Shown piece after piece: positions 36,784 through 44,203 of a DNA stretch of 64,000 nt. The DNA is from an uncultured Desulfobacteraceae bacterium (GTDB lineage: Bacteria; Desulfobacterota; Desulfobacteria; Desulfobacterales; UBA5852). The notes below the pieces were generated by a model that made no database searches, was not told where the DNA came from, and saw nothing but the letters and a program-made list of their open reading frames with translations. Position 1 is the first letter of the stretch; each line of letters begins with the position of its first letter. Both the position numbers and the translations under genes were made by a program. Location: NCBI GenBank assembly GCA_913060875.1, contig CAJXSL010000002.1, positions 186,001-250,000 of the forward strand, written 5' to 3'.

Positions 36784-37968
36784 TCATTCCCCGCCTAACA
36801 GCACCTGCTCGAATGTCTCCAGGAAGCCGTCGATGTCGGCGGTTTCAATGGTGAGGCTGGGATCGAGCCGCAGGACGTTGAGGCCCGGCCGCTTGCCCAG
36901 GATATAACCCCGCCGCACCAGGTCGCGATGGCAGCGGGTTGTCCGGGAGGCCTGGTCGTCGTCCTGCAATTCAACTGCGACCATCAATCCCCGCCCGCGC
37001 AAGGCGGCAATGCCATCCGTGCGCGACTGGATGCCTTCCAGACCGGCCATCAGCCGAGCGGCAATGTCTCGGCCCCGCTCGATGAGACCTTCCTGCGCGA
37101 TGACGGTCAGCACCGTGTGCGCCAGGGCGGCGCCCAGGGGGTCGTTCATGTGAGATTGCGCGTAGGGGACGGGCTGGTCCGCCAGCCGATCGGCCACCCG
37201 GGGCGCGATGGCTGTAACACTGACGGGATAGCCGTTGCCGATGCCCTTGCCCATGGCCGCGATATCCGGCGACACCCCGTAATGCTGGTAGCCGAACCAT
37301 TCGCCGGTGCGGCCCACGCCGGTGGTCACCTCGTTGACCAGAAACAGGCCGCCGGCATCCTTGATTTTGGCGGCAATGCCCCGGATGAGCTTGTCGGGCG
37401 GAAACCGCACGAGCCCGGACGAGCTGCCGGGCTCGAAAAGGAAGCCGCCGATTTTCTCGAAGGGAATGGCCGCCCAGCGGGGGCAGGCCGGGCGGCACTC
37501 CCCGGTCAGGGGACAGTCGGCGCATTCCATCCAGTCGAAAAGGAACCACTGGTCCTTTTCCTTGCGGTAGGCCGATCCATAGACCCCGAAATACGAGTCG
37601 GTCATGGTCATCAGGAGAGGCTTGGGGCTGACCGTCTGGGCCACGCGCACCCCGTATTCGACGGCCTCGCTGCCCGAACACAGAAAAACGCATTGACCGC
37701 CCGTCATGGCATGCAGGTCCAGAACCTTGGCAGCGGCCTGTTCCACCACCCCGCTGCCGTAGCAGAAACCGGTGTGGCCAATCCGGGCCGCCTGGTCCGC
37801 CATAACCCGGCGGGTTTCCGGGTGACCGTGGCCGATGGGGGTGCACCAGACCCCCGACTCCAAGTCCACATAGCGTTTACCGTCCGCGTCGTACAGGCTG
37901 CAGTTGTCCGCCCGGACCATGTCGTCCACCAGCCGTTCGTGGCCGGACATCCAGATAATGTTCGTCAT
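36784..37968 (-). CDS. class III aminotransferase with four-cysteine insertion
   Basis: This 394-residue PLP enzyme of fold type I has GSEAVEYGVRVAQ (cofactor phosphate region), VNEVTTGVGRTGEWFGYQHYGVSPDI around the Asp/Gln pocket, and the Schiff-base Lys in AAMGKGIGNGYPV. Between the small strands it carries an unusual block at about residues 148-161, CADCPLTGECRPACPRW, with four closely spaced cysteines. Usual members lack this; it could bind zinc or an Fe-S cluster. It is likely to transaminate an amine or amino acid, with an unknown partner. It is cytoplasmic. The ATG at 37968 has no obvious Shine-Dalgarno sequence. Confidence 0.87.
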   Translation of the reverse strand: MTNIIWMSGHERLVDDMVRADNCSLYDADGKRYVDLESGVWCTPIGHGHPETRRVMADQAARIGHTGFCYGSGVVEQAAAKVLDLHAMTGGQCVFLCSGSEAVEYGVRVAQTVSPKPLLMTMTDSYFGVYGSAYRKEKDQWFLFDWMECADCPLTGECRPACPRWAAIPFEKIGGFLFEPGSSSGLVRFPPDKLIRGIAAKIKDAGGLFLVNEVTTGVGRTGEWFGYQHYGVSPDIAAMGKGIGNGYPVSVTAIAPRVADRLADQPVPYAQSHMNDPLGAALAHTVLTVIAQEGLIERGRDIAARLMAGLEGIQSRTDGIAALRGRGLMVAVELQDDDQASRTTRCHRDLVRRGYILGKRPGLNVLRLDPSLTIETADIDGFLETFEQVLLGGE

Positions 37969-38043
37969 GGGGTTTTCCGTTCTGCGTCAAAGGTATGTGG
38001 CATGCGAAATTCGATCTTTAAATTTTCAACTTTGGAGAAAACC

Positions 38044-38571
38044 TCATTCGAGTAACCGTCGTTTCAGACGTGGCAAAAAACGCCCGGTTTGGGCGGCATA
38101 ACTGCGATAGGTCTCCCCGAAAATACGCGCCATGGCACCTTCTTCCCGGCGCACGAGCACGTGCCAGACAGGGTGCAGGGCCACCATCCCGAAAACGAAA
38201 GCCCAGCGGTTGAGGATCAGGACCACGCCGGGGACGATCAGGCTTATCCAGGCCGCGTACATGGGATGGCGCACATAGCGAAATGGCCCCCGCGTGCAAA
38301 GACGGTCGTTGCGCCACCAGTCCCGCAAGGTCAGGAAAGACCAACTGTGCAGTCCCAGCCCCAGCAGAACAAGCAGACCGCCGGCCAGGCGCAGGGCCAG
38401 GACATGGCCGCTGATGGCGCCGAAGCCAGCGAACCTATCGATCCAGGCCGCCACCGCCAGAAGCACCAGGCTGATCAGGGCACCCAGGGGGCCGATACCG
38501 AATATTTTCTGCAAACTCGGAAGTGGCATAAGCGTTCGTTCGACAGTGCCTATGGTTAACTTTGGAGCCAT
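38044..38571 (-). CDS. isoprenylcysteine carboxyl methyltransferase-like membrane protein
   Basis: ATG 38571 (MAPKLTIG) is preferred to the upstream GTG of the track. The roughly 175-residue product has hydrophobic helices at about 30-50, 60-80, 100-125 and 128-140. The PEMT/ICMT signature GPFRYVRHPMYAAW is followed by VRREEGAMARIFGETYRSYAAQTGRFLP. Bacterial members methylate unknown small or lipid acceptors with SAM. Length and signature are complete. It lies just downstream of the VWA gene on the same strand. Confidence 0.82.
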   Translation of the reverse strand: MAPKLTIGTVERTLMPLPSLQKIFGIGPLGALISLVLLAVAAWIDRFAGFGAISGHVLALRLAGGLLVLLGLGLHSWSFLTLRDWWRNDRLCTRGPFRYVRHPMYAAWISLIVPGVVLILNRWAFVFGMVALHPVWHVLVRREEGAMARIFGETYRSYAAQTGRFLPRLKRRLLE

Positions 38572-38619
38572 ATCTTTATAGGACCGCAATCGCAGCGTCA
38601 ATAAATGTATCGACACGGT

Positions 38620-39816
38620 TCAGTAGGCCGGACCTTTCGTATAGTGAATCGCCTTGGCCGCCGCCTGGGTCTTGATGCAGCGGTAGATTTGGGCATCCAA
38701 ACTCTTCCCCCCGCTGCCTTCCGCCTTTACTTTGGCTTCGATAAATTCCTGCCGCTGTTTGCCCAGTGCCGCGATCTTGTTTTGCAAAACCTGGCGGTCA
38801 GCGGCCCTTTCAGCAACATAGGCTTTGCGCTCTGCCGGACTCATGGCCTGCAATTCTTCCGGCAATTTCTCGGTCGCGACCGTTGCCATATCGACACGGC
38901 CGGATTCAACATCCGCCACCAGTTCCTGGGAACCGAGAAAATTTTTGACACCGGCCTTGCTGGCGTTGAAGACGGTCCGTTTGGCCACCGTCGACGGGGC
39001 CGCAGCGTCATAGATAGACTCGGCTTCGCGCTTGCGCGCCTCCATGGCTGCGCGCTGCCTGGTATCGCCGTAGTAAATCCGGGTGGCGTCCAGTTTGGCG
39101 GAAAGGGCCGCGATGCGGTCGTCATAGGGGGTTTCGTACAGAACAGCGCTGCCGGACTGGGCCACCTGGAAATACCGGCCCTCGGCCAGCCGGGCAATTT
39201 GCCGCCAAAACGGTGTCGTTTCCTCCAGGTTGCCGCACTGGATCGTATTGACGACGATATCCCCCTCGGTGGCCAGACGGCAGCTCTCCTTGTATTGAAC
39301 GTCATCCTGGTAGTCCATGTGCGGCGGGGCGTCACCCACCAGGAAAACGACCCGATAGGTCCGGGTGTCGCGGCTCCATTCCGGCCGGGTGACCGCTTCG
39401 TAGAGCGCCTGGTTGACGCTTTCAGGTCCGTCGCCGCCGCCCTCGGCCCGGTACTGCATGAGATGGGTGTAGACCGCATCCAGATCGTCGGACAAGGGCG
39501 TGAACACCGTGATATAGCGATCGCCCCGGTCGCGGTAGCCCACGAGGCCCATCCGGATGCGCGGGGCCGGTTCGGCGGTGGCCAGGGTATTGGCGATGGA
39601 CCATATTTTTTCTTTGGCCGCGGCGATCAATCCCCCCATACTGCCCGTGGTATCCAGCACGAACATCACTTCCACGGCCGGTCTTTTGGATGCCAGGGCA
39701 GCCCGGGATTCCCCGATCGTCTCCTCGGCAGCAAAAGACCGGCTTGCAGCGGTTAGCAAAACGGCCGCCATCAGGCCGTACGAAACAGCTTTTAGTTTGG
39801 GAAAATAAGTCGTCAT
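38620..39816 (-). CDS. secreted VWA domain protein
   Basis: ATG 39816 is chosen (GAAAGGAGCCTGGC); the track ORF reaches further up without support. The 398-residue product has a signal peptide (AVSYGLMAAVLLTAASRSFAAE). A von Willebrand factor A domain follows, with the MIDAS DTTGSMGG near residue 55, then MGLVGYRDRGD, GGGDGPESVNQALYEAV and VVFLVGDAPPHMDY. The C-terminal third is helical and charged. The MIDAS residues are intact, so metal-dependent protein binding in the periplasm is likely; the partner is unknown. Confidence 0.85.
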   Translation of the reverse strand: MTTYFPKLKAVSYGLMAAVLLTAASRSFAAEETIGESRAALASKRPAVEVMFVLDTTGSMGGLIAAAKEKIWSIANTLATAEPAPRIRMGLVGYRDRGDRYITVFTPLSDDLDAVYTHLMQYRAEGGGDGPESVNQALYEAVTRPEWSRDTRTYRVVFLVGDAPPHMDYQDDVQYKESCRLATEGDIVVNTIQCGNLEETTPFWRQIARLAEGRYFQVAQSGSAVLYETPYDDRIAALSAKLDATRIYYGDTRQRAAMEARKREAESIYDAAAPSTVAKRTVFNASKAGVKNFLGSQELVADVESGRVDMATVATEKLPEELQAMSPAERKAYVAERAADRQVLQNKIAALGKQRQEFIEAKVKAEGSGGKSLDAQIYRCIKTQAAAKAIHYTKGPAY

Positions 39817-40154
39817 GCCAGGCTCCTTTCTCTGTGGTAGTAGAACACCCTCGTCTGCTCGGAAGTGTAGCGAAGCCCGGTCATAAGGCAATGCAAACAA
39901 ATGCAAAATAAACCGCTATGAGATTTACGCTATTTTTGCATGGGGAATCATACCCGGTGTCAATTCACCCCCGGGAAACGACAGGTGAGCGTCATGCGCA
40001 ATGCTGCTCAAACAACGATGAGGACCGCGCCTGGTCCAAGGGTCCCACCGCCAGCGGCCTTCTCAGGACTTATCTTCGGTGGGTTGTCGCATGGTTGATA
40101 TTTCCGTATGCATCCAGGCACCTAAAATTGACTTTCTGCGGGACATCCTTATCA

Positions 40155-41587: not shown

Positions 41588-41618
41588 TTGACATCAGGCT
41601 ATACATATTATTATATGT
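41588..41618 (+). promoter_or_regulatory. arsR-family promoter and operator
   Basis: TTGACA (41588-41593), 17 bp and TTATAT (41611-41616) form a consensus-like promoter. The inverted repeat ACATAT-TATT-ATATGT (41603-41618) overlaps the -10 element, where an ArsR/SmtB repressor would block RNA polymerase. Confidence 0.75.
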
Positions 41619-41650
41619 TCATATGTTTAATTCTTTATATAAGGAGCACC

Positions 41651-42037
41651 ATGCCCACCATCACCGATCCGACCAAGTCGTCGAACACGCTGGAAACCTG
41701 CATGACCAAGGGGATCCATCGCGACATCATACGCGCCGTCAGGAAGGCCATGCCGGACCCCATCCATCTCTATGACCTGGCGGATCTGTTCAAGCTCTTC
41801 GGCGACAGCACGCGCCTGGGGATTCTCTGGGCCCTGAGCGAATCGGAGATGTGCGTCTGCGACCTTTGCGCCCTGCTCCAGATGAAGCAGCCGGCCGTGT
41901 CCCATCAGCTCAAGAATCTCAAGCAGTCGCGGGTGGTCAAGGCCCGCCGGGACGGCAAAGTCGTCTACTATTCGCTGGACGATGAACACATTCGCAAGCT
42001 GTTGAACCTGGGGATGGAACACTTGCTGGAAGTTTAA
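41651..42037 (+). CDS. ArsR/SmtB family metal-responsive repressor
   Basis: ATG 41651 follows AAGGAGCACC; the track start is in the promoter. The 128-residue winged-helix repressor has LADLFKLFGDSTRLGILWALSE, the metal-site motif CVCDLCALL in helix 3 (CxC, as in the CadC/ArsR group) and the recognition helix KQPAVSHQLKNLKQ, ending LGMEHLLEV. It should repress itself and the downstream P-type ATPase gene and release DNA when metal binds. Its TAA stop is inside the R3 palindrome. The partner gene points to Zn/Cd/Pb as inducers. Confidence 0.9.
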   Translation: MPTITDPTKSSNTLETCMTKGIHRDIIRAVRKAMPDPIHLYDLADLFKLFGDSTRLGILWALSESEMCVCDLCALLQMKQPAVSHQLKNLKQSRVVKARRDGKVVYYSLDDEHIRKLLNLGMEHLLEV

Positions 42038-42068
42038 CCCGAACATTTCATGAAATATTCAGGTTAAA
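42033..42068 (+). repeat. R3 solo palindrome between arsR and ATPase gene
   Basis: TTTAACCCGAACATTTCA directly followed by TGAAATATTCAGGTTAAA is a 36-bp near-perfect palindrome equal to the two R2 terminal repeats placed back to back. It contains the arsR stop codon and ends 12 bases before the next start codon. Confidence 0.85.
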
Positions 42069-42079
42069 CAGGAAAAACC

Positions 42080-44203
42080 ATGACGGCCGACGTATTGCCC
42101 ATGCAAAAACTGCATATCAAAAACCTGGACTGCGCCGCCTGTGCCGCCAAACTCGAACGCGCTCTCAAAAAGAGCGAGGGGGTGGAAGACGCGGTGGTGG
42201 ATTTTGTCAATCAGCTTCTTTTTGTCGAGGCCCGGGACATGGACCGCGTGCGCGACGCTGTGCGGGCCATCGACCCGCAGGTTGAACTTGTGCCGGCAAC
42301 ACGGACCGCGACCCATGATGCCCGGGAGGGCGCGCCCGGCGTCAACTTCAAAAAAGAAATTGCCCTCCTGTCCGCTGCCGCCACGCTATTTCTCTGGCTG
42401 CTGGTTTCAGGCAGCGGATGGGTCTCCCCCCTTTCTTTCCGGTGGCAACTGCTGATCGTGATGGCTGCCTACCTCATGGCGGGGGGGAACGTTCTCGCTG
42501 GAGCCTACCGAACCATCCGGCAAGGCCTTTTCTTCGACGAGAACGTCCTCATGGTCATCGCCACGGCCGGCGCCCTCGCCATCCAGGCCCACGCCGAAGC
42601 CGTGGGGGTCATGATCTTTTTCAAGGTCGGCGAGCTGCTTCAGGAAAAGGCGGTATACCATTCGCGCCGCTCCATTCGTTCCCTGCTGGCCGCCCAGCCG
42701 GATCAGGCCTTCCTGAAAACCCTGGAAGGCCTGCGCCCGGTGCCGCCCAAATCCGTTCAAGTCGGCGACACCATCGTTGTCAAGCCGGGGCAGAAGATCC
42801 CCCTGGACGGCCAGGTCCTGGAGGGTGAATCGCAGCTTGACACGTCCATGCTGACCGGGGAGCCCGTACCGTTGGCGACCCAACCCGGCGACACGGTCAT
42901 GGCCGGCCAGATCAGCACCACCGGGGCGCTGACCATCGAGGTAACCCGGCCCTTCCAGGAATCCTCCATCGCCCGGGTGATGGACCTGGTGGAACATGCC
43001 GCCGTCCGGAAAGCCCGGACCGAAAAATTTATCACCGTCTTTGCCCGCTACTATACCCCGCTGGTGGTGGCGGCGGCCGCCGGCATCGCCTTCCTGCCGC
43101 CTCTTTTGACCGGTGCTTCCTATCAGGATTGGATCTACCGCGCCCTCGTGCTTCTGGTCATCTCCTGCCCCTGCGCTTTGGTGATCAGCATTCCCCTGGG
43201 CTATTTCGCCGGCATCGGCCTGGCTTCCCGCCACGGCATCCTGGTCAAGGGCTCCAACTTCATCGATGCCCTGGCGGCCGTCCGGACCGTCGTCTTCGAC
43301 AAGACCGGCACGCTTACCCGCGGCGTCTTTGCGGTGAAAAAGATCGACAGCCGGAATGGTTTTTCCCGGGAACAACTCCTGGAACTGGCCGGCGCCGCCG
43401 AATACCAGTCCAACCACCCCATCGCCCGTTCCATCCAGATCGCCTTCGAAAAGCAGGGAGGCCGGATCGATGCGGCCCGCTTATCGGCGCACACCGTCCA
43501 CGCCGGCCTGGGGGTCAGCGCCCGCTATGACGGGCAATCCATCCTGGTGGGAAATGAGAACTTCATGCAGCGCCACGCCATCCCCCACAGCCGCAGCGAT
43601 GTTGACGGCACAGTGCTCCACATCGCCGTGGACGGCCGCTATGCCGGCGCCATAGTCATCGGGGACGCGATAAGGCCTGAATCCCTCGAGGCGGTTCACG
43701 CCCTGCGCGATCAGGGTGTCGACCATATCGCCATGCTGACGGGTGACAATGCCCGCACGGCCGCCATGATCGCAGCGGATCTGGGCCTGGACAACTACCA
43801 TGCCGGCCTTCTCCCGGAAGAGAAAGTCAGGGCCCTGGAAAAAATCGAACAGAAACGACCGAACGGAAAAATCGCCTATGTGGGGGATGGGATCAATGAC
43901 GCACCGGTTATTGCGCGATCTGATGTGGGGCTTGCCATGGGTGCCATGGGCAGCGATGCGGCCGTGGAAACAGCCGATGTCGTCATCATGACGGATTCAC
44001 CGATGAAAATGGCGGAAGCCCTGTCCATTGCACGGGCCACCCGGCGCATCGTCTGGCAAAATATTTTCCTGGCCTTCACGGTCAAGGGAATCTTTATCGC
44101 GTTTGGGGCGTTCGGATTGGCGACCATGTGGGAAGCCGTATTTGCGGATGTGGGCACGGCCCTGCTGGCGGTGGCCAATGCCGCACGAATCCTCAGGGGC
44201 TGA
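42080..44203 (+). CDS. zntA: heavy-metal P1B-type ATPase (Zn/Cd/Pb)
   Basis: This 707-residue metal pump has an N-terminal HMA domain with LDCAACAAKLE (metal-binding CxxC) and an A domain with LTGEPVPL. The membrane metal site is SCPCALVI, the phosphorylation motif is DKTGTLT, and the hinge is GDGINDAPVIARSDVG. The C-terminal membrane helix contains DVGTALLAVANAARIL, typical of ZntA/CadA where an Asp ligands the metal. It should export Zn2+, Cd2+ and Pb2+ across the inner membrane. It forms a unit with the ArsR gene, separated by a 42-bp gap that contains the R3 palindrome. Confidence 0.93.
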   Translation: MTADVLPMQKLHIKNLDCAACAAKLERALKKSEGVEDAVVDFVNQLLFVEARDMDRVRDAVRAIDPQVELVPATRTATHDAREGAPGVNFKKEIALLSAAATLFLWLLVSGSGWVSPLSFRWQLLIVMAAYLMAGGNVLAGAYRTIRQGLFFDENVLMVIATAGALAIQAHAEAVGVMIFFKVGELLQEKAVYHSRRSIRSLLAAQPDQAFLKTLEGLRPVPPKSVQVGDTIVVKPGQKIPLDGQVLEGESQLDTSMLTGEPVPLATQPGDTVMAGQISTTGALTIEVTRPFQESSIARVMDLVEHAAVRKARTEKFITVFARYYTPLVVAAAAGIAFLPPLLTGASYQDWIYRALVLLVISCPCALVISIPLGYFAGIGLASRHGILVKGSNFIDALAAVRTVVFDKTGTLTRGVFAVKKIDSRNGFSREQLLELAGAAEYQSNHPIARSIQIAFEKQGGRIDAARLSAHTVHAGLGVSARYDGQSILVGNENFMQRHAIPHSRSDVDGTVLHIAVDGRYAGAIVIGDAIRPESLEAVHALRDQGVDHIAMLTGDNARTAAMIAADLGLDNYHAGLLPEEKVRALEKIEQKRPNGKIAYVGDGINDAPVIARSDVGLAMGAMGSDAAVETADVVIMTDSPMKMAEALSIARATRRIVWQNIFLAFTVKGIFIAFGAFGLATMWEAVFADVGTALLAVANAARILRG

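Follow-up and report, generated by a model that had tools for sequence, protein, structure and literature searches.

Among solved structures, the top sequence and fold matches of the protein described here belong to the dialkylglycine decarboxylase and acetylornithine aminotransferase subgroup of class III PLP enzymes, with which it shares the fold, the PLP lysine and the arginine that binds the α-carboxylate; an H-x2-DP stretch is also common to it and dialkylglycine decarboxylase. The aspartate that pairs with N1 of PLP is regarded as a fixed feature of fold type I enzymes: in an alignment of this fold type the Asp, the Lys and an Arg were invariant, with one exception noted for the Arg, and laboratory replacement of the Asp cripples a threonine aldolase, the D168N change lowering kcat/Km from 1.7e4 to 20 per s per M (PMC5986058). 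A second point of comparison is mammalian GABA aminotransferase, likewise a class III PLP enzyme, which carries a [2Fe-2S] cluster (PMC12731848). Compared with the dialkylglycine decarboxylase and acetylornithine subgroup, the clade that we describe has Asn in place of the PLP-N1 Asp, a compact loop of four cysteines (Cys4) and several motifs absent from that subgroup (DLESGVWC, WxxFDW, EPGSSSGxVRFPP and YAQSHxND). The Cys4 loop is a candidate metal site.

Family assignment, distribution and gene neighbourhood

The window that we analysed is a 64,000-nucleotide stretch of a contig from an uncultured Desulfobacteraceae bacterium. On its minus strand, positions 36784..37968 (start ATG at 37968) encode a 394-aa protein that matches Pfam Aminotran_3 (PF00202) with E=3.2e-63 and 214 bits, compared to a cut-off of 30.5. 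None of the best 25 NCBIfam matches listed exceeded its own cut-off, and the top ones among them were acetylornithine transaminase types scoring at most 178 bits against cut-offs of at least 372. The nearest solved structures by sequence were dialkylglycine decarboxylase, PuuE and acetylornithine aminotransferases. An AlphaFold2 model of the enzyme (mean pLDDT 86.3, pTM 0.88) resembles acetylornithine and GABA aminotransferases and dialkylglycine decarboxylase in fold, and a Foldseek search with this model retrieved class III enzymes at 8e-31. The ORF product belongs to the class III aminotransferase (fold type I) sequence and fold family. We regard a plus-strand ORF overlying the gene (36928-38055) as its antisense shadow.

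A scan of bacterial genomes recovered a sequence with 75% identity from the same genus (L001, identical to L089) and further sequences with 58-64% identity from Latescibacterota, Eisenbacteria, Desulfarculaceae and Acidobacteria (L002-L006), below which identity dropped to about 30%. The resulting family alignment comprised 47 members of one clade, with identities to the window enzyme from 75% down to about 41%, and in a tree of 82 rows this clade formed one side of a branch with an SH-aLRT of 100. Judged by sequence, it is a separate and as yet uncharacterised clade of class III PLP enzymes, hosted by the same order, other Desulfobacterota, Latescibacterota, Eisenbacteria and Acidobacteria. 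Whole-genome searches located it in 28 of 390 genomes from the same order, in 5 of 395 from the phylum and in 12 of 80 from a sample of the Latescibacterota phylum; even in the window's own genus only two of five genomes carry it. Its distribution is therefore patchy. The plasmid collection held no close member, with a best identity of about 32%. One apparent 720-aa fusion with an upstream domain (L005, 4963-7125) proved to be an artefact of reading through a masked stretch; the same record has a further gene fragment elsewhere (G770:C1:1182660-1183028).

Directly upstream of the aminotransferase-fold gene lies a gene for a PEMT/ICMT-like membrane methyltransferase (38044..38616, minus strand; Pfam PF04191/PF04140), and the same order of genes recurs at L112 and L120, any functional link between the two being putative. 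MocR-type regulators (GntR plus aminotransferase domain) adjoin the gene at L113, L114 and L142, which represent three distant branches, and this fits control by an amino compound. We rejected operon context as a guide to function because no neighbour is common to most loci, the MocR-type and PEMT/ICMT-like genes each occurring at three. Elsewhere in the window, a gene for a VWA-domain protein (38620-39906, minus strand) adjoins the methyltransferase gene. Positions 41588-44203 (plus strand) hold an apparent ArsR-like regulator ORF followed by one resembling heavy-metal P-type ATPases (N-terminal DCAACAAKLE), a putative pair also seen at L120.

The four-cysteine loop

The initial annotation had singled out a block of four clustered cysteines, which does exist: CADCPLTGECRPAC corresponds to residues 149-162 of the window enzyme in 1-based numbering (148-161 in the 0-based count first given) and has the form C149-x2-C152-x5-C158-x3-C162. 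The block occupies 37483..37524 on the minus strand; the interval originally assigned was 37483-37530, and the trailing PRW lies just beyond that interval. The block is conserved in homologues, with Cys in 45 of 46, 42 of 44, 43 of 45 and 43 of 44 sequences at the four columns (95-98%) of the 47-member alignment. Its surroundings are hypervariable: at the non-Cys positions of residues 147-165 the commonest residue averages 31%, compared with 60% across the whole protein. Loop length also differs among members that keep all four cysteines, for example C-x2-C-x4-C-x3-C in L092 and C-x2-C-x3-C-x2-C in L093. Because the cysteines are strictly kept while the intervening residues and the length vary, the loop is likely to be a set of metal or Fe-S ligands, and the zinc or Fe-S site proposed at the outset stands as a putative one on this pattern; poor conservation, named at the outset as grounds for refuting it, is not what the alignment shows. 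In eight of the 47 members at least one of the four cysteines is gone or respaced (L006, L131, L139, L140, L148, L152, L155 and L156), several of these retaining three cysteines and L131 having a nearby His; the site is therefore dispensable in some members.

Comparable spacings are familiar from proteins of unrelated fold. The SPASM domains of radical SAM enzymes have CX2CX5CX3C, identical to the spacing in the window loop, the retroviral zinc knuckle (CX2CX4HX4C) is nearly equal to it, and the [4Fe-4S] loop of endonuclease III is similarly compact. Since the spacing matches both zinc and Fe-S precedents, it alone picks neither. The cluster of GABA aminotransferase is built differently, from a CxxC contributed by each of two subunits and lying beside a GS-x-x motif, whereas the window loop has its four cysteines in one chain. 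At what we take to be the position of that CxxC, the family has C93-x3-C97 instead, with Cys in 37 of 46 and 34 of 46 sequences. A search of solved structures turned up none that carries the complete set of cysteines, the only partial match being a CYRC in 6zhk, and the open-access literature yielded no report of a four-Cys class III aminotransferase. AlphaFold2 confidence is poor in the loop (about 58 for residues 151-160), where the prediction rested on seven family sequences.

Two features of the original description did not hold up. The block had been regarded as an insertion, but the Cys4 loop stands where the other class III members sampled have a longer segment, which rules out an insertion into a standard enzyme. 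It had also been called unusual for the family, yet 17 of the 102 other class III sequences that we sampled have a four-Cys pattern, so a loop of this kind is not unique to the window's clade. In those printed, this second loop type reads C(Y/L)RC-x7-8-C-x3-C and lies between the same two conserved blocks. It is carried by paralogues in the window's own genome (L087 and L088), by a clade comprising L161-L179 and by marine gammaproteobacteria (L010 and L013). The paralogue genes, at 1495-2886 of L087 and 1387-2724 of L088, encode C-Y-R-C-x8-C-x3-C together with the canonical Asp, and their relatives in the order retain the loop. The four cysteines of this second type sit at the same topological place as those of the window clade but differ in spacing and sequence. 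All 17 sequences retain the canonical Asp, and in the tree they stand apart from the window's clade; to our knowledge, neither a metal nor a structure has been described for them. The two loops could have been gained independently, or they could go back to one old trait with many losses. The host, a sulfate reducer, does have an anaerobe-type genome, which encodes a DsrA above the curated cut-off, but the occurrence of four-Cys loops in marine gammaproteobacteria means that a redox role confined to anaerobes is not implied, and the suggested anaerobe link is weakened.

Asn212 and the active site

Apart from its cysteines, the protein had been described as a typical PLP enzyme, which is not quite right. 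The Asp for PLP N1 in the motif DE-x3-G-x-GR was found in 102 of 102 other class III sequences, yet is replaced by Asn in 45 of the 47 family members, including the window enzyme (Asn212, 37333..37335, minus strand). The only members with Asp, L092 and L156, both diverge close to the clade's base, and the sole Asn-bearing entry among the other class III sequences, L108, is a copy of the family member L004. This clade-wide substitution, which the initial annotation missed, is arguably odder than the cysteine block.

Other predicted catalytic residues are retained. The predicted Schiff-base lysine (Lys241, 37246..37248, minus strand) corresponds in the alignment to the class III AK/GK lysine and is present in 47 of 47 members, as are S272 and H273, a predicted phosphate-side Ser-His pair. 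Arg367 (36868..36870, minus strand), predicted to bind the α-carboxylate, is present in 45 of 45 and aligns with the 'vfRiaPplt' Arg of dialkylglycine decarboxylase. A predicted substrate-side loop contains Trp41-Cys42 of the DLESGVWC motif (37843..37848, minus strand; W in 45 of 45 and C in 42 of 45). Compared with other class III enzymes, the predicted active-site residues E37, C42, Y130, T215, Q271, H273 and D276 are specific to the clade. Because Lys, carboxylate Arg and Ser-His are fully conserved, we infer that the clade is probably active with altered chemistry rather than dead.

With the Schiff-base lysine and the α-carboxylate arginine kept, PLP action on an α-amino acid would still be expected. 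An Asn in place of the Asp at N1 probably does not keep the pyridine nitrogen protonated, so the reaction may depart from ordinary transamination, and the window enzyme may not be an ordinary aminotransferase. The compact Cys4 loop connects the PLP-stacking loop (SYFG) to the FxFEPGSSSG strand, where other members have a longer segment, and its four cysteines together would coordinate a single metal centre, which would be Zn(II) or an Fe-S cluster. Such a centre would most likely stiffen the loop near the active-site entrance or the dimer interface, and could link activity to redox or metal status.

Combined interpretation and alternatives

Taken together, these results favour a distinct clade of class III PLP enzymes in which the strictly conserved four-cysteine loop probably holds a metal, binding one zinc or Fe-S centre, and altered PLP-N1 chemistry acts on an α-amino acid; we assign this reading a probability of about 0.62. 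A more specific version, in which an Fe-S or zinc PLP enzyme with Asn at N1 carries out a non-transamination reaction (for example, racemisation, decarboxylation or metal-assisted redox) and the metal centre participates in or gates it, is tentative and we consider it doubtful.

We think it unlikely that the protein is instead an ordinary aminotransferase, with the Cys4 block being an ancient zinc-binding structural element of class III enzymes that has no particular function, and N212 simply tolerated. The kept catalytic Lys and Arg would suit such an enzyme, as would the other four-Cys loop in canonical-Asp enzymes, including the paralogues and those of marine gammaproteobacteria, but all members except two have Asn at position 212, where every other sequence sampled has Asp, and many further predicted active-site positions are clade-specific. 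Also improbable is that the cysteines act not as metal ligands but as thiol-redox switches, forming reversible disulfides that thioredoxin reduces and that gate access to the active site. There are precedents in a Plasmodium ornithine aminotransferase that is bound via a disulfide and activated by thioredoxin (PMC2660430) and in the CXXC switch of human mitochondrial BCAT (PMC9081730), and the loop does contain two pairs, CxxC and CxxxC. Nonetheless, two-Cys switches have no need of four cysteines kept in tight spacing with little else conserved, and disulfide control is less expected in an anaerobe-type host genome. Finally, a functionless chance cluster can be dismissed: shuffling the window protein's own residues (10 Cys) placed four Cys inside 14 residues in 1.9% of cases and gave C-x2-C-x3-6-C-x2-3-C in 0.075%, but conservation of 95-98% over about 41-75% identity and several phyla refutes it.

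A natural clade with a fixed Asn and a conserved Cys4 site allows the role of the pyridine nitrogen in setting PLP reaction specificity to be tested directly, and could give a metalloenzyme branch to a family that is mined for biocatalysts.
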